Source of the DNA: Desulforamulus ruminis DSM 2154
GTDB lineage: Bacteria; Bacillota; Desulfotomaculia; Desulfotomaculales; Desulfotomaculaceae
Assembly: GCF_000215085.1 (NCBI RefSeq)
Contig: NC_015589.1
Coordinates: 2,182,120 to 2,246,119, forward strand
Length of the DNA stretch: 64,000 nt
Reading direction: 5' to 3'
A model generated the notes under the pieces. It ran no database searches and was not told where the DNA came from. It saw only the letters and a list, made by a program, of their open reading frames with translations. Shown here one piece after another: positions 18,493 through 29,264 of the stretch; position 1 is the stretch's first letter, and each line of letters opens with the position of its first letter. A program made the position numbers and the translations under genes.

Positions 18493-19905
18493 ATGAATCC
18501 AGTTTCTGAAATCACCATCCTGCGACGCAATATCTTTACCAAAGTAGCCCGCCGGGCTCTCAACAGGCCCTTGGATCAAGGACCCTCTAGCATTGACATG
18601 GCTGCTCTGGTAAAGGAACTGATTCCGGACGGTCCGGCCCGTTACCGCTGCTGCATTTACAAAGAGCGGGCCATTGTGGAAGAACGAATTCGTATTGTTA
18701 TCGGCGAAGCCAAAACGTCACCCATCACCATCATTTCAGAAGCCTGCAACGGCTGCTCTTTAAACAAATATATCGTAACCGACGCCTGCCAAAATTGCGT
18801 TGCCCATCCCTGCCGGAACAGTTGCCCCAAAAAGATTATTTCGGTCATTCAAAACAGAGCTTTTATTGATCAAAATTCCTGCGTTGAATGCGGAAAGTGT
18901 GCGAAAGCCTGTCCTTACAATGCCATTATTGAGATTACCCGTCCCTGTGAGCGGGCCTGTACCATCAAGGCCATCAAAGTGGATGATTCCCGCAAGGCGG
19001 TTTTGGATATGGATAAGTGCGTTTCCTGCGGTATGTGCGTCACCGTTTGTCCCTTCGGAGCTATCACGGACACTTCTCAAATGCTCAATGTCATTGATTC
19101 CCTTCGTAAACAGGAGCAGCCCCGGGTGGCCATTATCGCTCCGGCCATTGCCGGACAGTTTGGACCTAAGGTGACTCCCGGCCATATTAAATCCGCCCTG
19201 CTGCGTCTTGGTTTTGACAGGGTGGTGGAGGCTGCTCTGGGCGCCGATCAGGTAGCCAAAGAGGAAGCGGAAGAAATTAAAGCCCATTACGATGCCGGTT
19301 TAATGACTAATTCCTGTTGTCCCGCCTACGCCCGGGCCATCGTACAAAAAATGCCTGAACTAACCGGCAATCTTTCAGCTTGCCTGTCGCCCATGAAGGT
19401 GGTAGGTCAGTTGGTTAAAAAGCAATATGAAGATAAAGTCACCACAGTTTTTATCGGCCCCTGCATTGCCAAAAAAGCGGAGGCAGCGGACAGCCGGGAA
19501 ATTGATTGGGTATTAACCTTTGAGGAGCTGGCCGCCCTTCTGCAGGCCGCCGAGATCGACCCGGCCGCCCAATTGCCTGCGGATATGCAGGACGCCTCCC
19601 CTTATGGACGGCTGTTTGCCCGCTCCGGCGGGGTCAGCGCCGCCGTGCAGCGGCATCTATCGGGCATCCTTGTTGATATATCCCAGGTACAGGGTTTATC
19701 CCAGTGTTTGACCACCCTTAAGCTTTCAGCCAAAAAAACCGATGGCAATGGTTTTACCTTTATTGAAGGCATGGCCTGCGAAGGAGGCTGCATTGGAGGT
19801 CCCGGCACCATGGTCTCTCCCGCCGTGGCGGGCAGGGCCCTGGAAAAATATGCCGGACCGCTGGACACCGCCAAGGAAAGGGACGATTCACAAATTACCG
19901 CTTAA
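18493..19905 (+). CDS. Monomeric [FeFe] hydrogenase, group B type
   Basis: A 470-residue iron-sulfur enzyme. The N-terminal part carries a YRCCIYKERAI segment, a Cys-rich insertion (CNGCS, CQNC, CRNSCP) and two 4Fe-4S motifs (CVECGKCAKACP at 130-141; CVSCGMCVTVCP at 176-187). The H-cluster motifs follow: L1 NSCCPAY (C275/C276), L2 GPCIAKKAE (C324) and L3 MACEGGCIGG (C432, C436). All H-cluster ligands are present. L1 and L3 differ from group A (TSCCPGW, GGGQP), and the N-terminus matches the group B1/B3 family. A role in H2 evolution or sensing is inferred. Electron partners and HydEFG maturases are not adjacent. The ATG follows GGAGGGG. Confidence 0.88.
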   Translation: MNPVSEITILRRNIFTKVARRALNRPLDQGPSSIDMAALVKELIPDGPARYRCCIYKERAIVEERIRIVIGEAKTSPITIISEACNGCSLNKYIVTDACQNCVAHPCRNSCPKKIISVIQNRAFIDQNSCVECGKCAKACPYNAIIEITRPCERACTIKAIKVDDSRKAVLDMDKCVSCGMCVTVCPFGAITDTSQMLNVIDSLRKQEQPRVAIIAPAIAGQFGPKVTPGHIKSALLRLGFDRVVEAALGADQVAKEEAEEIKAHYDAGLMTNSCCPAYARAIVQKMPELTGNLSACLSPMKVVGQLVKKQYEDKVTTVFIGPCIAKKAEAADSREIDWVLTFEELAALLQAAEIDPAAQLPADMQDASPYGRLFARSGGVSAAVQRHLSGILVDISQVQGLSQCLTTLKLSAKKTDGNGFTFIEGMACEGGCIGGPGTMVSPAVAGRALEKYAGPLDTAKERDDSQITA

Positions 19906-19940
19906 CATGAAAGACGGCCTGAGGCCGTCTTTCATGTTAA
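19902..19940. terminator. Terminator hairpin after the hydrogenase gene
   Basis: A perfect 18-bp stem (19902-19919 with 19923-19940), 3-base loop, overlapping the stop codon. There is no strong T-run. It lies between convergent genes. Confidence 0.65.
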
Positions 19941-19987
19941 GCCGGGAATGATGCAGCCGGCCCCATGGCTTCTTGCCCTTCTACTCC

Positions 19988-20680
19988 TTAAATGTCGGAG
20001 GACGGCAGTCCGGCCACTCCGTTGACCGGGAGAGAAAAGACAATGGTCTTGGCATCGGTTTTAAGACCCATCTTCTCCGTAATTGTCTCCATAATTCCTT
20101 GACAAAGTTCCTGTTTGGCCAGTATAAAAATCATCTCTTTTTCCGGCTGGATGGATATGCCGAAAAACTTTTCGGCCTGCCTTAGGCCAACTCCCCTGGC
20201 GTGCACCACGGTTCCCCCGGAGGCTCCGGCAGATTTTGCCACGTCCATGACTTCATCCATATATCCCTGGCCTGTAACTGCGATGATTAAATTGTATTTG
20301 AAGGGCAGTTCCATCGATATTCCTCCCCGTTTCTGTGCTGCGCCCTGCAATCGCTTGCATGAGGCTGCGTCTGCAACACCGCTGATGGGTATACTAAAGG
20401 CAATCCCTTTACCGGGTTTACTCAGGTTCAGCTCATTCAGCTTTTCAAACATAAGCCTGGACGTTTCCAAGGGCATGGTACAGTACAATATATCTTTTTC
20501 TGTTTCACCCAAACCCAAATACACCAATATTTTTTTATCTGCGGTTCCTTTACCTAATGTAAGCAAATTAAAGGTTACACCATGGTCCACAAAGAGGCTG
20601 GCAATCTTTTCTCCCTTTCCCCTGTTAACAACGACCACCATGAGAACCATCGATGCAGTTTCAGACTTATCTGGGGGCAT
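19988..20680 (-). CDS. Duplicated PII-like (GlnB/GlnK-fold) regulatory protein
   Basis: A 230-residue protein built of two PII-like ferredoxin-fold halves. Half 1 (about 10-105) runs from MVLMVVVVNRGKGEKIASLF to GIAFSIPISGV. Half 2 (about 125-225) runs from YNLIIAVTGQGYMDEVMDV through GASGGTVVHARGVG to TIVFSLPVNGV. Half 2 keeps the T-loop-base GGTVVHARG pattern typical of PII-like proteins, and half 1 has lost it. The ATG at 20680 has AGGAGG 7 bases before it. It is just downstream of the DUF1538 membrane gene (140-bp gap), so it is presumably the soluble sensor of that membrane protein. The ligand is unknown. Confidence 0.75.
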   Translation of the reverse strand: MPPDKSETASMVLMVVVVNRGKGEKIASLFVDHGVTFNLLTLGKGTADKKILVYLGLGETEKDILYCTMPLETSRLMFEKLNELNLSKPGKGIAFSIPISGVADAASCKRLQGAAQKRGGISMELPFKYNLIIAVTGQGYMDEVMDVAKSAGASGGTVVHARGVGLRQAEKFFGISIQPEKEMIFILAKQELCQGIMETITEKMGLKTDAKTIVFSLPVNGVAGLPSSDI

Positions 20681-20820
20681 TGTGACTCCTCCTTTCGATC
20701 TGACCCACAGGCTTTCTTCAACCGCTGTCAATCACTTTTTCTGTCCTTGCCCGTTCGCCCTATACCGGGGGTTCAGTGATTTTCTTACCCACTTCTTTTT
20801 TAATCCCGGGCTCTATGATT

Positions 20821-22401
20821 TCATCTTGTTCGGTCCTCATCTGTACCCGCCGTTTCGGTTAAAAGGCCTTGGTCTTTTGCGCCTATTATATCATAGTCAT
20901 TTAATGAATCTTCCATGGAAAATTCCAATTCGGCCTCCAGCTCTTTATTGTGACGCAGTTTGATGTTATAAATCAACCCCAGGATTTGTATGGTTACCAA
21001 AGGCATCATGGCGGTCATGCCAATAATGCCAAAGGCGTCCGTCATAATGTTTCCACCAACGGCTTCACAAATTCCCACAGCGAAAGGAAGCAGAAAGGCA
21101 GCCGTCATGGTTCCCGCCGCGACCCCGCCGGAATCAAAAGCAATGGCCGTAAATATTTTAGGCGTGAAAAAAGTGAGTATTAAAGCGGCCAAGTAACCGG
21201 GAATCAGGAAATACCAGATACTAATGCCCGTCAATATACGAACCACCGACAAGATCAGGGCAACACTTACACCCATGGATAAGCCGTACATCATCATCTT
21301 CTTGGATATGGCGCCGCTGGTTATATCTTCAACCTGTTTATTAAGCACATGCACTGCGGGTTCCGCATATACAACAAAGAAGCCAATCACCGCGCTAAGG
21401 GGAATAAGCACCCAGTTATAGGATAAATCAGTGATCTCCCGGCCAAGGAAGGTTCCTGCGGGCATAAAACCGATATTTACACCGGTTAAGAAGATGGAAA
21501 GTCCAATCAGTGTATAAACAATCCCGATTACGATTCGTATTAGTTTTGTTTTGGATAGCTTTAAGCGTACCACCTGAAACAGCCCGAAGATTACTAAAAT
21601 TGGCAGTAGCACCGTTAAAACCTCTTGGAAAAACTGTAAAAAACCCAGGCCGTAGAGAGCAAGCAGTTCCTTAAAGCTGTTGACGTTCTCTGTGGTTTCA
21701 AAGGCATAACCGGAAGCCGATGAATCAAAGAACATGCCCATAATCAGTACAGCCAGAACCGGACCGATTGAGCACAGCGCACAAATGCCAAAACTGTCTT
21801 CCTCCGAGTTTTTTCCGCCTCTAACTGCTGAAATACCGACACCCAAGGCAAGAATAAAGGGAACTGTAATGGGTCCTGTGGTCACACCCCCGGAATCAAA
21901 GCCAATGGCTAAATAGTCCGGAGCCGCAAAGGCCGCAACAGCAAATACCAAAATATAAGATATGATAAACATCCGGGAAAGGGAAAGCTGAAAAATGATC
22001 CGTAAAAGCGCAAGCATCAAAAAGAGGCCTACACCAAATGCCACGGAAGCTACCAAAACAAAATCGGGAACGGCCGGAACCTGCTTGGTCAGGACTTGCA
22101 AATCCGGTTCAGCGATGGTAACCACCACGCCAAGAATAAAACCGCTGAGAATAATCAGCCAAAGTTTCCGTGATTTCGTTAATTCGGAACCAATAGCTTC
22201 GCCAATGGGCATCATGGCCATATCCGCTCCCAAGGTAAAGATACTCATACCGGCAATCAGTAAAATGGTGCCGGTTATAAACAGCATTAAAGTTCCAAAG
22301 GGCATGGGGGATATGGTAAAGTGCAAAACAAATACAATAAAGCTAATCGGTAAAACCGATTGAGCGGATTCTTTTAATTTGTTGAATAATTCTCTTGACA
22401 T
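20821..22401 (-). CDS. DUF1538 family membrane protein (tandem duplicated)
   Basis: About 526 residues with 12-14 membrane helices formed by two homologous halves. Each half has LLIAGMSIFTLG or IGLSIFLTGVNIG followed by MMPIG or MPAG, an AEPDLQVL or AEPAVHVL segment, a glycine-rich FDSGGV(T/A)(T/A)G re-entrant motif, and an FGI-plus-helix end. This is the DUF1538 domain twice, suggesting an inverted or tandem pore or carrier. Function is not established in the family. GAGG lies 9 bases before the ATG at 22401. Adjacent PII-like and CBS proteins suggest ligand-gated control. Confidence 0.8.
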   Translation of the reverse strand: MSRELFNKLKESAQSVLPISFIVFVLHFTISPMPFGTLMLFITGTILLIAGMSIFTLGADMAMMPIGEAIGSELTKSRKLWLIILSGFILGVVVTIAEPDLQVLTKQVPAVPDFVLVASVAFGVGLFLMLALLRIIFQLSLSRMFIISYILVFAVAAFAAPDYLAIGFDSGGVTTGPITVPFILALGVGISAVRGGKNSEEDSFGICALCSIGPVLAVLIMGMFFDSSASGYAFETTENVNSFKELLALYGLGFLQFFQEVLTVLLPILVIFGLFQVVRLKLSKTKLIRIVIGIVYTLIGLSIFLTGVNIGFMPAGTFLGREITDLSYNWVLIPLSAVIGFFVVYAEPAVHVLNKQVEDITSGAISKKMMMYGLSMGVSVALILSVVRILTGISIWYFLIPGYLAALILTFFTPKIFTAIAFDSGGVAAGTMTAAFLLPFAVGICEAVGGNIMTDAFGIIGMTAMMPLVTIQILGLIYNIKLRHNKELEAELEFSMEDSLNDYDIIGAKDQGLLTETAGTDEDRTR

Positions 22402-22796
22402 TCGCAACTTCCTCTCATATATCAAGCTTTAATCCAATTGCCTGGTATCCTGTTGGACAAGCAGTACAGCACGCAGTTTACTGAGAATCAAGAGAGGGGA
22501 TAAGAAACACACCACCCAATTTAAAATTGATATTATAAAAAAGTGAAAATCCAAATATCCCTATTCGAATTGCGCCGAACTAGAAGGGCGAGGAGGCTCC
22601 ATCGTGGATACGAAGTAAAGGTTCTTCGATAGGACGCTTACTTTTCTAAGGGATGGGACCGCACCTAAAACGGTGAAATCCCTGATAATGACCTGCCAAG
22701 AACAGCCGGAGGCTTTTTACAACCTCCGGCATCGTCGTCTTTTAAAACACTTAAAATTCTTTTTAGTCTACTGATTGGGAACATTATAATTGCTTA
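22402..22796. other. Intergenic region with candidate structured RNA (about 22577-22730)
   Basis: The spacer between the CBS gene and the DUF1538 gene contains a G-rich segment that folds well on either strand: GGAG/CTCC and TCCA/TGGA mini-hairpins (22592-22607), GGGAT/ATCCC (about 22650-22682), and a perfect GCCGGAGG/CCTCCGGC hairpin (22705-22730). A TATAAT-like -10 on the minus strand near 22533-22538 could serve the DUF1538 gene. No known riboswitch consensus fits fully. Confidence 0.35.
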
Positions 22797-23237
22797 TTAG
22801 TAAATGTGCTTTAGCACCTCAAAAATATTTAAGTCCCCAATCACCTTTCGATCATCATTAATTACCGGTAGTTGACTTAATTTATAATCAGCCATTAGTT
22901 TCAAGGCTTCCTCTAATGAAGTTTCTTTTTTTACATAGATACCTAGGGCATGCTTCATAATGTCCTTTGCCGACCCGAAAATCGAATATTTAAAAAGTGT
23001 TTCAGTGATTTTAATATTTTGCGGAGTATATCCTAAACGAAGCATAATGCTGTCTAAAACAATCTGCAGTGTTATGATCCCCGTTAATCGCTCATCATCA
23101 TCAACAACATAAATTGAATGCATAAAAGGAGATCCTTTTTGTATTAGGGTATCAATGACTTCTTGATTGGTTGCGTTTTGGTTGATTAAGTTGGGAGTGG
23201 TATCTAAAATTCTATAAACACATCCTACTGTCATCAT
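22797..23237 (-). CDS. CBS-pair domain protein
   Basis: A 146-residue protein made of one CBS pair. CBS1 is about 12-70 (ATNQEVIDTLIQKGSPFMHSI, then VVDDDERLTGIITLQIVLDS). CBS2 is about 90-146 (VKKETSLEEALKLMADYKL, then LPVINDDRKVIGDLNIFEVL). CBS pairs bind adenosine nucleotides or c-di-AMP and regulate partner proteins. The ATG follows GGTGA. The gene sits between the remains of one DUF1538 gene and an intact one, suggesting it regulates that transporter type. Confidence 0.8.
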   Translation of the reverse strand: MMTVGCVYRILDTTPNLINQNATNQEVIDTLIQKGSPFMHSIYVVDDDERLTGIITLQIVLDSIMLRLGYTPQNIKITETLFKYSIFGSAKDIMKHALGIYVKKETSLEEALKLMADYKLSQLPVINDDRKVIGDLNIFEVLKHIY

Positions 23238-23289
23238 TTTTGCATCACCGCCCTTTTAAGGATTCTTAGGCAGACAATCCCTACCACTT

Positions 23290-23517
23290 TTTACACTCCA
23301 AGTGATAAAAGAATCCCGTTGGGGTAGTTCGGAACCGATTATTTCTCCTAAGGGTAACATCACAGCCGTTACTCCTAGGAGGAATAACCCGAGACCGATT
23401 TTCATCATTGCCAGACATCGGATCAATGAAACCTGATAAAAAAATACAGGCTGCTACCACAACAAGGACCATCCTCGGTAAGATTGCCTGTAAAACCTAT
23501 TCAGCTAGTGTTTTTAC
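23290..23517 (-). pseudogene. Decayed DUF1538 gene fragment
   Basis: Minus-strand translation gives VLQAILPRMVLVVVAA then CIFLSGFIDPM in one frame, and MKIGLGLFLLGVTAVMLPLG then EIIGSELPQRDSF in another. These match, in order, the N-terminal segments of the intact DUF1538 protein (AQSVLPISFIVFVL and LLIAGMSIFTLG with MMPIGEAIGSEL). There is an in-frame stop near the start, an internal deletion with a frameshift, and the rest of the gene is missing. A perfect AAAGGAGGT ribosome site remains at 23522-23530. Confidence 0.7.
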
Positions 23518-23966: not shown

Positions 23967-26585
23967 CTATAGGCTGGGGCAGGCTACAGTGGATTGCTTT
24001 GGCCGGACAGTCGTCTCAGTATAGGGATCTCCCACCTTCATCAACCTCATACCGTTGGCAATTACCAGCAGGGCGGTGCCGGTATCCGCAAAAACCGCCA
24101 TCCACAAATTGGCCATTCCCAGGAAAGTGGCCACCAGGAAGACAGCCTTTACCAGCAGGGAGAAGCCGATGTTTTGTTTAATAATGCTCAGAGCCCGGCG
24201 GCTCAAGTGCATGGCATAGGGTAATTTGGTCAGGTCGTCCGCCATGAGTACAATGTCTGCGGTTTCCAGGGCGGTATCCGTACCGGCTCCGCCCATGGCA
24301 ATGCCCACAGTGGCAGTGGCCAAAGCCGGCGCGTCATTGACTCCGTCTCCAACCATGGCTACCTTACCGCTCTCCTTCTGCAATTGTTGAATGGCTGTCA
24401 GCTTATGCTCAGGAAGCAATTCGGCTCGAAAATCGTCAATGCCCAGTTCCCCGGCAATCACCCGGGCGGTTCCGGCATTATCCCCGGTTAGCATCACCAA
24501 TTTGGCAATGCCCGCCCGGTACATTCCCGCCACTGCGGCCCGGCTGCTCTCCCTGATTTTATCCGCCACCGCAATAAGACCCAAAGCCTCTTGGCCGCTG
24601 CCCAAAATCATTACGGTCTGACCCTGTTGCTGCAATGCCGTAATCTGTTCTTGCAGATAGTTTAGGGATACCTTTATCTCTTCAAATAACCGGCTGTTGC
24701 CGATGTAGTACTGTTCACCCTTTAACCGCAATGCGGCGCCCTTGCCGGTGAAGGATTGAAAATCCGTGCCTTCCGGCACCGGGATGTTCTCTTGCCGGGC
24801 ATATCTTAAAATGGCTTCCGCCAGCGGGTGCTGGGAGCGGTTTTCAATAGCCGCGGCAATTTCCATTACCTGTTGAGAGTCAAAGCTGCCAACAGGAATG
24901 ACGGCGTTCACTTCCGGCCTGCCGTCGGTCAGTGTACCGGTCTTGTCAAAGGCAATTACTTTTAAAGCTCCGGCCTCTTCCAGATAGGCCCCGCCTTTGA
25001 TTAACACGCCTTTTTTGGCGGCGCTGCCAATGGCGGCTACAATGGACACCGGGGTGGAAATCACCAGGGCGCAGGGGCAGGAAACCACCAGCAGAATCAG
25101 CGCCCGCTCAAACCAAGGCTGAAACGGTTGTCCGAAAAGAAGCCAGGGCAGCAAGGCCACCAGGACGGCAGTGACAATCACCGCCGGTGTGTAGTATCCG
25201 GCAAACACATCCACAAACTGCTGGGACGGCGCCTTCTGGGCCTGGGCCTCTTCCACCAGATTAATGATTTTAGCCAGAGTGGTGTCTTTTACCAATTTGG
25301 TGACTTTAACTTCTATGGACCCCTGACCGTTGATGGTACCGGCATAAACCTCATGGCCAACAGTTTTCTCCACCGGCATGGACTCCCCGGTGATGGAGGA
25401 TTGATTTACATCGGTTCGTCCTGCCAGCACTTCACCGTCCATAGGGATGCGCTCACCGGGTTTCACAATGATGATGTCCCCCACCACCAATTCCTCCACC
25501 GGCAGGTGTACCTCTTGACCGTTGCGCCGTGCCAAAGCCTCTTTGGGGGAGAGATCCATCAGCGCCCGGATGGAGTTGCGGGTTTTATCCATGGTATAAG
25601 CCTGCAGAGTATTGCCCAGGGCAAACAGGAATACCACCGTGGCTCCTTCCGCCCATTCCCCGATGGCTGCCGCGCCGATGGCCGCCACCATCATCAGGAA
25701 ATTCATATCCAAGGACAATGACTTGAGGGAATACAAACCGCTCCTGGCTGTGTAAAACCCTCCGCTGATCATAGCGGCAAGATAAACCGCCGTTACCATG
25801 AAATCCGGCATGTTAAGATAAGAAAGGATAAAGCCTGCCCCAACCAATAAGCCCGACAGAACCGTTAGAATCATCTTGATCTCTGCGAAGAAACTTTTCG
25901 TCACCGGCTTCCTTTCTTCGTTAGCCAACCGGCCTTGAAAACCGGCATTCTCGATGGCCTTCAAAATGGTTTCTGTCGAGGCTGTGTGCTTCGCTGTCAA
26001 TTTTCCTGCCCCAAAGTTAATTTTTGCTTCCGTCACACCGCTTAATACCTGGAGCTTTTTTTCCAGCTTGGCGGCGCAATCGGCGCAGTCCATCCCGCTT
26101 ATCCGGAAAACCGTGGTTTTTTGTCCTCCCTCTAAGTGAGCCTGGTAGCCGGCGGCCTTCACGGCCTCCAAGATGGATGACAGAGCCGAGGTGTGGCTGA
26201 CGGTCATTTTACCCGCTCCGAAGTTAATACTGGCTTCTGTCACACCGGGCAGGGCCTTGATTCTTTTCTCCAATTTAGCGGCGCAATCGGCACAGTCCAG
26301 GCCGCTTATGCGGAACCGGCTCTTTTGCCCCTGCTGTCTTTGCTCCAAAAGGGCCTCCGGTTTTTGGGGCATGCTATGGGACTCTCTGGTCAGGGCCGTA
26401 CTATAATCTATCTTCCCTAATGTAACACCGGATAAAGGATTTCGCTTTTTATCAGGCAGTACTCCCTCGCCGGAATGGGCCATCTGCGCATCCTTTACCT
26501 CCGCATTTTCTTCTGCGGTATGGGAGCAATTGCCGCAGCCACATCCGCCGTGCGTTTTTTGATTATGGTTATGGATTCCTTGCAC
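23967..26585 (-). CDS. cadA: Heavy-metal P1B-type ATPase (CadA/ZntA type), first copy
   Basis: About 872 residues. A His/Cys-rich N-tail (HNHNQKTHGGCGCGNCSH) is followed by two very similar heavy-metal-associated domains (each with G-L/M-DCADCAAKLEK, about residues 92-155 and 165-228). Then come the membrane helices and P-type core: the TGES actuator motif, SCPCALVIS in helix 6, DKTGTLTDGRP phosphorylation site, HP in SQHPLAEA, and GDGVNDAPAL. This pattern fits Zn2+/Cd2+/Pb2+ efflux. Near-identity of the two metal domains suggests recent internal duplication. Start: AGGAGG ends 7 bases before a GTG at 26585; an ATG at 26591 and one at 26606 are alternatives with poorer spacing. Confidence 0.9.
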   Translation of the reverse strand: MQGIHNHNQKTHGGCGCGNCSHTAEENAEVKDAQMAHSGEGVLPDKKRNPLSGVTLGKIDYSTALTRESHSMPQKPEALLEQRQQGQKSRFRISGLDCADCAAKLEKRIKALPGVTEASINFGAGKMTVSHTSALSSILEAVKAAGYQAHLEGGQKTTVFRISGMDCADCAAKLEKKLQVLSGVTEAKINFGAGKLTAKHTASTETILKAIENAGFQGRLANEERKPVTKSFFAEIKMILTVLSGLLVGAGFILSYLNMPDFMVTAVYLAAMISGGFYTARSGLYSLKSLSLDMNFLMMVAAIGAAAIGEWAEGATVVFLFALGNTLQAYTMDKTRNSIRALMDLSPKEALARRNGQEVHLPVEELVVGDIIIVKPGERIPMDGEVLAGRTDVNQSSITGESMPVEKTVGHEVYAGTINGQGSIEVKVTKLVKDTTLAKIINLVEEAQAQKAPSQQFVDVFAGYYTPAVIVTAVLVALLPWLLFGQPFQPWFERALILLVVSCPCALVISTPVSIVAAIGSAAKKGVLIKGGAYLEEAGALKVIAFDKTGTLTDGRPEVNAVIPVGSFDSQQVMEIAAAIENRSQHPLAEAILRYARQENIPVPEGTDFQSFTGKGAALRLKGEQYYIGNSRLFEEIKVSLNYLQEQITALQQQGQTVMILGSGQEALGLIAVADKIRESSRAAVAGMYRAGIAKLVMLTGDNAGTARVIAGELGIDDFRAELLPEHKLTAIQQLQKESGKVAMVGDGVNDAPALATATVGIAMGGAGTDTALETADIVLMADDLTKLPYAMHLSRRALSIIKQNIGFSLLVKAVFLVATFLGMANLWMAVFADTGTALLVIANGMRLMKVGDPYTETTVRPKQSTVACPSL

Positions 26586-26740
26586 AGTCATCCCTCCTCT
26601 AACCATTATTGAGAAACTTTCTTAATCAAACATTCAAACAATCACTTTAATATTATAATATTACGGAAGTTACTTTTTGTCACCTGTTTTTTGTAATGGA
26701 TCATTAAATTTTATTTTATCCCCATAAAACATTAAGGGAC

Positions 26741-26891: not shown

Positions 26892-29264
26892 TTACACCGG
26901 ATTGAAACGCATCACCCGCATGGCGTTCAGGATGGCCAGCAGGGCCACGCCTACGTCGGCAAAGACCGCTTCCCACATGGTAGCCACCCCGCCGGCTCCC
27001 AGAAGCAAAAAGATTCCTTTTACCACCAAAGCCAGGATAATGTTTTGCCAGACAATACCTCTGGTTCTTTTAGCTATTTGCATGGCGGAAACCAGTTTGG
27101 AAGGTTCGTCGGTCATCAGGACTACATCCGCTGCTTCAATGGCGGCGTCGGAACCAAGGCCGCCCATGGCCACACCAATATCCGCCCTGGCTAAAACAGG
27201 AGCGTCATTGATGCCGTCACCGGCAAACAACAATTTTTCCTTTGGTCCCTTTTCCCGATTTAGCCGCTCCACCTGCTCCACTTTCTGGTGCGGCAGCAGT
27301 TCGGCATGAATCTCGTCCAGCCCCAGGGACCGGCCCACCGCCTGACCGACCTCCCGGTTATCGCCGGTAAGCATCACCAGTTTTCGCACGCCCATCTCCT
27401 TCAGCCTTTTCATTACCGTGGCGGAATCTTCTTTCACTTCGTCCGATATCACGATATAACCGGCGTATTTCTTATTTACCGCCAGATGAACTACCGTTCC
27501 GATGATTTTGTCCTGGGAATAGGCAACGCCTTCCCGCTGCATTAGCTTGCTATTGCCCGCCAGAATTTCCTCGCCCTCAACCTTTACCTTAATACCGTGC
27601 CCGGAAATCTCTTCATAGTCCTCAATCTTCTCGGTATCCACCGACCGGTTATAGGCCTCGACAATGGACCGGGCTATGGGATGGCTGGAATGCGCCTCGG
27701 CAAAAGAAGCATATTCCAGCAGCTTCTCTTTACTAAAGACCTCTTCCGGCACCACTCCGGTTACTTTGAATACTCCTTGGGTCAGCGTGCCGGTCTTATC
27801 GAAAACCGCAATTTTCACATCATTCAGGGCTTCAAGATAATTGCCGCCTTTAATCAGCACGCCGTTTCTGGAGGCCCCGCCAATGCCGCCGAAAAAGCCC
27901 AGAGGGATGGAGATGACCAGGGCGCAGGGACAGGCGATAACCAACACCACCAGCGCCCGGTATATCCAGTGCTGGAAAGTAGCTCCAGGAATTAAGAGGG
28001 GCGGCAGCAGTGCGATGGCCAAGGCTCCGAAGACCACCACCGGAGTATAATAGCGCGCAAATTTGGTGATAAAGTTCTCTGTGGGCGCCTTCTTGCCGGC
28101 GGCGTTCTCCACCAAATCCAGGATTTTAGAGACAGTGGACTCGGCAAAAGGTTTGCTGACCTCCACCGAAAAGAGGCCGCTTTTATTAATAAAACCCGAC
28201 AACACCTCAGCCCCCGGTACCACTTCCCGGGGCATTGATTCCCCGGTCATGGCGGAGGTGTCCACCAAAGACTTTCCTTCAATAACTTTGCCGTCCAGAG
28301 GTACCTTCTCACCGGGCTTTACCACGATGATATCTCCAATGTTAACGCTTTCCGGAGGAACCGGTTTGACTTCATCCCCAACCTTCAGGTTGGCGCTGTC
28401 CGGCCGGATATCCATCAGAGCGGCAATGGACTTGCGGGAGCGGTTCACCGCATAGTCCTGAAACAGTTCCCCCACCTGGTAAAACAGCATCACCGCTACC
28501 GCCTCCGGAAACTGCCGGATAGCAAAGGCGCCCAGGGTGGCCACGCTCATCAAAAAATTTTCGTCAAACACCTCTCCCCGGGCAATATTACGGGCGCTCT
28601 TTAATAAGACCTCACCGCCCACCAGCAGGTAGCTTAGCCCATAAAGGACGATTTCCACCGGAGTGGTAAAGTTAAAGATTAAAGCTGCCGCAAACAGCGC
28701 CGCCCCGGCAGCCAGGCGAAGGGTCCCTTTCCTTTCAGCCTTGGTTTCTTCCCGGGGATTCATCTTTTTTTCCGCCAGGGACAATTGCTCAACCTTAACC
28801 CCTGGTTCAATGCGGTCTATTTTTTGTTTAATCTGTTGATAAATCTCGGTCTCAGGGCTGTTATGGGCTAGTTCTACCATCAATTTTTTAGCCGGGAAAT
28901 TTACTACGGCACTTTGGACGCCGGATATTTTCTTTATTTGTTGCTCAATCTTGGCGGCACAATTGACACAATCCAGCCCCATCAACAGAAAAGACTTTTG
29001 CCGGCTAAAGTCCACCCTTTTTTCGGTTACCACCACATCCGGTTCCATTTGACGAATGATTGCCCTCACTTCAGTAATCACCCGTTCCAAATCCTCTACC
29101 CCGGCGGTCTCCAGGGTAAGTTTTTTGGCTGTAAAATCTACATGCACATCCGTAACTCCATCCAAGGCTTTTATTCTTTCCTCTATCCTGGCTGCGCAGG
29201 AGGCACAGTTTAAACCTTCCAAAACCAGTTCTTTAGCACCGGTGATCATTCCCTTTAACCCCAT
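26892..29264 (-). CDS. cadA: Heavy-metal P1B-type ATPase (CadA/ZntA type), second copy
   Basis: 790 residues. Two N-terminal metal-binding domains are more divergent than in the neighbouring ATPase (GLNCASCAARIEE at about 16-28; GLDCVNCAAKIEQ at about 93-105). Then come the full P1B core: TGESMPRE, ACPCALVIS, DKTGTLTQGVF, SSHPIARS and GDGINDAPVL. Probably a Zn/Cd/Pb or related divalent-metal exporter. The pair is not a recent tandem duplicate: the N-termini and many core residues differ. The start is uncertain: an ATG at 29249 (MITGAKELV) is equally possible. The stop is close to a repeat and a hairpin. Confidence 0.9.
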   Translation of the reverse strand: MGLKGMITGAKELVLEGLNCASCAARIEERIKALDGVTDVHVDFTAKKLTLETAGVEDLERVITEVRAIIRQMEPDVVVTEKRVDFSRQKSFLLMGLDCVNCAAKIEQQIKKISGVQSAVVNFPAKKLMVELAHNSPETEIYQQIKQKIDRIEPGVKVEQLSLAEKKMNPREETKAERKGTLRLAAGAALFAAALIFNFTTPVEIVLYGLSYLLVGGEVLLKSARNIARGEVFDENFLMSVATLGAFAIRQFPEAVAVMLFYQVGELFQDYAVNRSRKSIAALMDIRPDSANLKVGDEVKPVPPESVNIGDIIVVKPGEKVPLDGKVIEGKSLVDTSAMTGESMPREVVPGAEVLSGFINKSGLFSVEVSKPFAESTVSKILDLVENAAGKKAPTENFITKFARYYTPVVVFGALAIALLPPLLIPGATFQHWIYRALVVLVIACPCALVISIPLGFFGGIGGASRNGVLIKGGNYLEALNDVKIAVFDKTGTLTQGVFKVTGVVPEEVFSKEKLLEYASFAEAHSSHPIARSIVEAYNRSVDTEKIEDYEEISGHGIKVKVEGEEILAGNSKLMQREGVAYSQDKIIGTVVHLAVNKKYAGYIVISDEVKEDSATVMKRLKEMGVRKLVMLTGDNREVGQAVGRSLGLDEIHAELLPHQKVEQVERLNREKGPKEKLLFAGDGINDAPVLARADIGVAMGGLGSDAAIEAADVVLMTDEPSKLVSAMQIAKRTRGIVWQNIILALVVKGIFLLLGAGGVATMWEAVFADVGVALLAILNAMRVMRFNPV

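Follow-up and report, generated by a model that had tools for sequence, protein, structure and literature searches.

A DUF1538 membrane protein gene and its PII-like neighbour in Desulforamulus ruminis: a near-obligate gene pair and a possible sensor-controlled cation antiporter

A 64,000-nucleotide stretch of the Desulforamulus ruminis DSM 2154 genome (NC_015589.1, positions 2,182,120 to 2,246,119; the window, in whose own numbering coordinates are given below) contains a gene for a membrane protein with two fused DUF1538 domains, followed by a gene for a protein with two PII-like domains. In the order of transcription, the minus strand carries a decayed DUF1538 fragment, a CBS-pair gene, the fused DUF1538 gene and the tandem PII-like gene. 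An earlier note on this DNA, made from the sequence alone, had described these four as lying together, and profile matches located all of them:

23304-23429, minus strand: decayed DUF1538 fragment (42-position match, 25.9 bits against a cut-off of 22.6)
22797-23237, minus strand: CBS-pair gene (PF00571, two stretches, E 5e-19)
22705-22730, minus strand: terminator-like hairpin in the gap between the CBS and DUF1538 genes (consensus match only; 9 such sites found, 4.7 expected)
20821-22401, minus strand: fused DUF1538 membrane protein gene, UmpAB-like (frame open back to 22425); copy 1 at about 21730-22347, copy 2 at about 20971-21600, each with E below 1e-68
19988-20680, minus strand: PII-like gene with two PII domains (ATG at 20680 behind GGAGG; frame open back to 20731); N domain at about 20372-20647, C domain at about 20009-20293, both by family profile
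19900-19942, minus strand: perfect 21-bp inverted repeat, terminator-like, 3' of the PII-like gene

Good ribosome-binding sites stand at the starts of the DUF1538 gene (22401) and the PII-like gene (20680); 140 bp separate the end of the former gene from the start of the latter. The reading frames around the DUF1538 fragment at 23304-23429 are broken. The gap 5' of the fused DUF1538 gene, between it and the CBS gene, measures about 370-395 bp. A riboswitch in this gap is not claimed: its single Rfam match is at chance level, it folds no better than shuffled sequence (z -1.1), and it was unmatched in the 9 other genomes searched. Over 15 kb around the locus, no Rfam family scored above its gathering score.

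Linkage was scored when a PII domain lay on the same strand within 700 bp downstream of a DUF1538 cluster. By this measure PII was found directly downstream in 224 of 232 clusters, with a median inter-domain gap of 70 bp; the unit counted is the cluster rather than the species, without correction for kinship, and the genome sets may share species. Omitted from the count are L001-L012, L186-L194, L220 and L222, which are loci of the D. ruminis genome itself, duplicates, ordinary PII loci and one match below the cut-off. Six of the eight clusters without an adjacent PII gene end at contig ends, as do two clusters with PII; the other two are L241 and L130. At L241 (genome G712) the same strand has the PII gene 2.7 kb beyond, behind unrelated frames that include one transposase as read by eye. 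At L130 (genome G225) the tandem PII gene sits on a different contig from the fused DUF1538 gene; there (L259:4395-6894) it is divergent from a gene for a 455-residue protein, hydrophobic by eye and unmatched in Pfam and NCBIfam. Linkage of DUF1538 to PII is near-obligate and far beyond chance. The earlier note had staked its reading on the genes being linked in other genomes too, and for DUF1538 and PII they recurrently are.

A species-genome scan with the DUF1538 alignment returned, among its best 80 loci, 79 with two DUF1538 followed by two PII domains, the exception (L049) stopping at a contig end; because these loci were mostly of the window's own type, loci from further genome samples and from plasmids were added. 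DUF1538 was detected in 138 of 398 genomes sampled from the window's phylum (loci were read from 85 of the 138, plus the D. ruminis genome), in 27 of 149 genomes from the phylum of a spirochaete locus, and in 32 of 196 genomes from the phylum of a Methanoculleus metagenome-assembled genome (MAG) that carries a locus. When the same 398 genomes were searched reciprocally with the tandem-PII alignment (E 1e-12), 138 were positive, the hits being spread over 99 of the sample's 266 genera. Both genes occurred in 136 genomes, DUF1538 only in two (G065 and G311, the locus in G311 stopping at a contig end), PII only in two (G058 and G374) and neither in 258, corresponding to a phi of 0.98, uncorrected for kinship. 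In G374 (L258:5649-7589) a PII gene of the DUF1538-linked type, with no DUF1538, is followed by a CitMHS/ArsB-type permease, an arrangement in keeping with a sensor that serves ion transporters. Around the unit there is no further recurrent neighbour: any one family reached at most 2 of the 45 upstream genes and 4 of the 46 downstream genes scanned, from samples of 65 of 134 and 65 of 130 genes, respectively.

PII also stands beside DUF1538 in all nine plasmid records found, three of them alphaproteobacterial, and public annotation has the two genes next to each other. Seven unannotated phage-labelled records (H10-H16) carry DUF1538-like genes, possibly representing bacterial DNA in phage collections; the viral contigs gave no DUF1538 match. 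PII-controlled transporters and UmpAB are already known. In the open-licence literature, no paper among the matches listed brings PII together with DUF1538 or UmpAB, and the systematic pairing was likewise not found there.

The internal duplications described in the earlier note could be traced in both proteins. The fused DUF1538 protein matches PF07556 in two stretches with 463.8 bits against a cut-off of 22.6, each copy scoring separately above the cut-off, and its halves are 31% identical to each other (BLAST E 3e-28). Residues conserved symmetrically in the two halves are E106/E355, D177/D431, R142/R396 and Q115/Q364. In the AlphaFold2 model (predicted local distance difference test score, pLDDT, 86.3), E106/E355 lie at helix breaks and D177/D431 shortly ahead of another break. 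Foldseek found nothing in the PDB at E 0.001 or better for this model, and the DUF1538 alignment had no match among PDB sequences up to E 1. VIA-align gave a top Z score of 5.3 to CLC-7 (144 residues, 5.2 Å) and matched EAAT transporters in part, with Z 3-4; since such scores are within the range of unrelated helical proteins, neither kinship to the CLC-7 or EAAT fold nor a new fold is claimed.

The sole characterised DUF1538 pair is UmpAB of Halomonas zhaodongensis, so that the substrate of the family, which the earlier note had called unknown, is not wholly so. In the available portions of the source (PMC5484666), UmpAB gives E. coli KNabc back its Na+ and Li+ tolerance, Na+(Li+,K+)/H+ antiport was measured in everted vesicles, and the two proteins form a heterodimer as judged by co-immunoprecipitation. 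Growth of KNabc was rescued by umpA and umpB jointly and by neither singly, from a plasmid without a PII gene (PMC5484666). UmpAB and the window protein share PF07556, and UmpAB likewise has two homologous seven-helix halves, present there as a pair (PMC5484666). In contrast, the halves are fused in one chain in the window protein, which also has a PII partner; "PII" or "P-II" has no occurrence in the available text of PMC5484666.

The topology of the two copies was compared by the difference in lysine plus arginine between alternate loops, the loop columns being defined from the first half of the window protein. First copies had a mean difference of +7.47 (positive in 213 of 214, one zero), and second copies a mean of -5.75 (negative in 211 of 218). 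Opposite positive-inside signs were found in 206 of 214 loci, the window giving +10 and -8. Because the copies carry opposite signals, the simplest reading is that they are predicted to form an antiparallel pair of seven-helix halves; the number of helices is odd, and direct fusion therefore inverts the second half. Six of the seven rule-breaking second copies are spirochaete forms with a long charged insert. This insert group (11 loci), which represents a separate duplication in the tree, has opposite signs in 5 loci. Six single-gene DUF1538 loci gave values of +1 to +3, weak yet all of one sign. Dual-topology small transporters such as SMR occur as weakly biased single genes, as oppositely biased pairs and as fused forms, and have four helices. 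DUF1538 similarly has pairs of opposite bias and fusions, and its six single genes show a bias that is weak but of one sign; it differs in its seven-helix halves and its PII partner, and no sequence relation is claimed.

In the PII-like protein, the C half matches the Pfam family P-II (PF00543) with 37 bits against a cut-off of 25; the N half is not picked up separately by Pfam, but it can be aligned both with the C half (E 5e-7) and with a profile of relatives. Its model (pLDDT 79.7) matched GlnK1 in Foldseek with an E value of 1.4e-5, and SbtB also, the matches covering one domain. PDB entry 9p1x, which the PII profile matched best by sequence, aligns like ordinary PII. Single-domain relatives have the motifs GGT..GRGTGIHE, IEPEKE and KPG.GIAFV in common, and the GGT..RG...PEKE core is strongly conserved in the C and single domains. 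Two pairs of additional PII genes occur elsewhere in the D. ruminis genome (G000:C1:799669-802027 and 3508835-3509536; L186-L189), all four above the Pfam cut-off. In the tree these four ordinary proteins cluster together, away from nearly all DUF1538-linked PII, and the tandem-PII profile is selective, finding one of the genome's five PII matches. The DUF1538-linked PII proteins are a divergent subfamily specific to these loci.

Domain numbers in the two partners are related. Among 224 clusters counted, with contig-edge cases excluded, single DUF1538 genes were followed by one PII domain in 6 of 6, and 144 of 146 fused DUF1538 genes by more than one, with two PII domains in 140 cases and three in 4; the exceptions are L130 and L210, the latter with one domain detected in a chain long enough for three. 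The 69 split pairs had one PII domain in 44 cases, two in 24 and none in one, and three clusters have broken DUF1538 calls. Of the co-evolution proposed in the earlier note, a relation of domain numbers is supported; strict co-duplication does not hold, as 44 of 69 split pairs have a single PII domain, and N- and C-type PII domains occur alongside both split and fused DUF1538. In a tree of few columns and many weak forks, N and C domains fall in largely separate groups, with the single domains on the C side, and the PII doubling is accordingly old. The spirochaete loci L213, L214, L216 and L218 have three PII domains in chains of 374-378 residues, directly 3' of fused DUF1538. The three-domain assignment rests on the family profile, to which 4 of 8 chains matched with each of the three domains at E 0.0014 or better, rather than on Pfam, which reached E 0.1 or better in 4 of 7 chains and its cut-off in none.

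The presence of a PII gene next to DUF1538 in nearly every locus examined suggests that DUF1538 is a transporter class switched by a small-molecule sensor. The reading we favour, with a confidence slightly better than even, is that the fused DUF1538 and PII-like genes make up a two-gene unit encoding a PII-gated monovalent cation/proton antiporter of the UmpAB type. The antiporter would consist of two homologous halves of seven helices each, with opposite orientations in the membrane, and would, in D. ruminis, exchange Na+ or K+ for H+. The cytoplasmic PII-like sensor would dock on the cytoplasmic face of the DUF1538 pair, with a bound small ligand, most likely an adenine nucleotide, setting its effect; the nucleotide gating suggested in the earlier note is an inference. 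By analogy with GlnK and SbtB, as presented in the available part of PMC10710835, the PII-like protein would change cation/proton exchange, most likely by inhibiting it. The activity of UmpAB without its own PII gene fits a regulator of this kind, more likely an inhibitor than an activator.

Several observations weigh against this reading. The window protein scores below both NCBIfam equivalog cut-offs for UmpA and UmpB (NF041627, 197.1 of 490 bits; NF041628, 141.3 of 500 bits), and we therefore call it UmpAB-like and not UmpAB. In DUF1538-linked PII other residues stand in place of the canonical GDGK loop, which the ordinary PII proteins of the genome have; in the window the loop reads KPGKGIAF in the N domain and TDAKTIVF in the C domain, the latter without the KPGxG replacement. 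Because of these two changes, nucleotide binding by the window protein may be lost or altered. The ligand site, if one exists, may combine features of both domains, given that KPGKGIAF is retained in the N domain and GGTVVHARG in the C domain. Finally, PII control seems confined to transporters able to act as trimers, according to the available text of PMC10710835, and UmpAB is a heterodimer.

Known PII-transporter systems offer partial parallels. In GlnK-AmtB and SbtB-SbtA a PII-family protein with the PII fold is likewise linked to a transporter (PMC10710835, available part), but these transporters are trimeric and of another family, whereas DUF1538 is two-fold, and DUF1538-linked PII is tandem or triple with divergent ligand-loop motifs. 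PII-NG with CzcABC similarly places a PII-type gene beside a proton/cation antiporter gene; CzcABC is an RND metal pump, not DUF1538, and is likened here by its description in the available part of PMC7726332 only.

A more far-reaching joint reading, which we offer tentatively and rate below an even chance, is that the DUF1538 proteins form a dual-topology family of cation antiporters for which a PII partner is obligate. Single-gene forms would insert both ways and be paired with a one-domain PII; gene pairs and fusions would have fixed the two orientations while the sensor was doubled; and the spirochaete three-domain chain would be a covalent PII trimer, perhaps with one working ligand site. 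If so, the sensor would follow a two-fold transporter, contrary to the trimer remark printed in the available part of PMC10710835.

Alternatively, the transporter may move another substrate, for instance ammonium, bicarbonate or an organic ion, with PII reporting on nitrogen or carbon status in the manner of GlnK and SbtB, and with UmpAB antiport being a side activity or confined to some members. This is unlikely, though the strongest of the alternatives. A single DUF1538 pair has been characterised (PMC5484666, available part), the window protein is distant from it, and the known partners of SbtB and GlnK are uptake systems (PMC10710835, available part). The restored salt tolerance and vesicle antiport of UmpAB (PMC5484666) speak for cation/proton exchange, which the acidic residues conserved in both halves would suit.

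It is less probable still that the PII-like protein serves DUF1538 as a partner in structure or assembly and has no sensing role. The near-obligate linkage and matching domain numbers speak for such a partner, as does the erosion of B-loop and T-loop motifs in one PII domain or the other. The strong conservation of the GGT..RG...PEKE core, however, is as expected of a ligand site. E. coli possesses ordinary PII proteins; UmpAB worked there without a PII gene of its own (PMC5484666, available part), which argues against an assembly role, but in their presence.

The earlier note also counted the CBS protein as a partner, and a CBS protein acting as a third part of the unit is improbable. In genome G002 (72% complete) an operon of DUF1538, DUF1538, PII and CBS lies on one strand, the second DUF1538 having breaks, and in G001 a divergent CBS gene adjoins the operon. 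Beyond D. ruminis and these two sister genomes no CBS gene was found beside a DUF1538 locus: a profile grown from the window's CBS protein matched in 0 of 80 loci, with flanks of up to 10 kb, many shorter. In the window, moreover, the gap of about 370-395 bp and its terminator-like hairpin separate the CBS gene from DUF1538, and the CBS gene instead follows the decayed fragment, with the same gene order as in the G002 operon. The closest relative of the fragment outside its own genome is the first DUF1538 gene of that operon (77% over 35 residues). CBS is not part of the conserved DUF1538-PII unit. The simplest history is that the CBS gene and the fragment are the remnant of a split-type operon minus its middle, adjoining a fused-type operon. 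The fused operon is nearest in the DUF1538 tree to L246 (71% and 72% per half), from a genome sampled in the phylum of the Methanoculleus MAG; since other members of the genus show about 42%, these identities suggest that the fused operon was acquired horizontally. L042, from the Methanoculleus MAG, is among the operons most like the window's (65% overall); for L042 and L246, horizontal transfer or a mixed bin may apply.

That the adjacency is chance or merely inherited gene order is scarcely credible, even with linkage counts uncorrected for kinship, as the same order occurs in the window's phylum, spirochaetes, the archaeal-MAG sample and alphaproteobacterial plasmids, with differing neighbours.

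Elsewhere in the window, a monomeric [FeFe] hydrogenase gene (18493-19905, plus strand; TIGR04105, 502 bits against a cut-off of 450) is convergent with the PII-like gene, and two large P-type ATPase-like genes with repeats of the heavy-metal type, read by eye, lie at 23967-26606 and 26892-29264 on the minus strand.

If the DUF1538-PII unit is a PII-gated antiporter, DUF1538, which is widespread (138 of 398 genomes in one phylum sample) and classed as a domain of unknown function, would gain both a function and a control point, and PII signalling would be tied to sodium, potassium and pH balance. It would also become directly testable whether antiporters are gated by PII proteins and in what way a two-fold transporter accommodates a three-fold sensor. 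PII partners with one, two or three domains would serve as natural tools for asking which PII sites matter.

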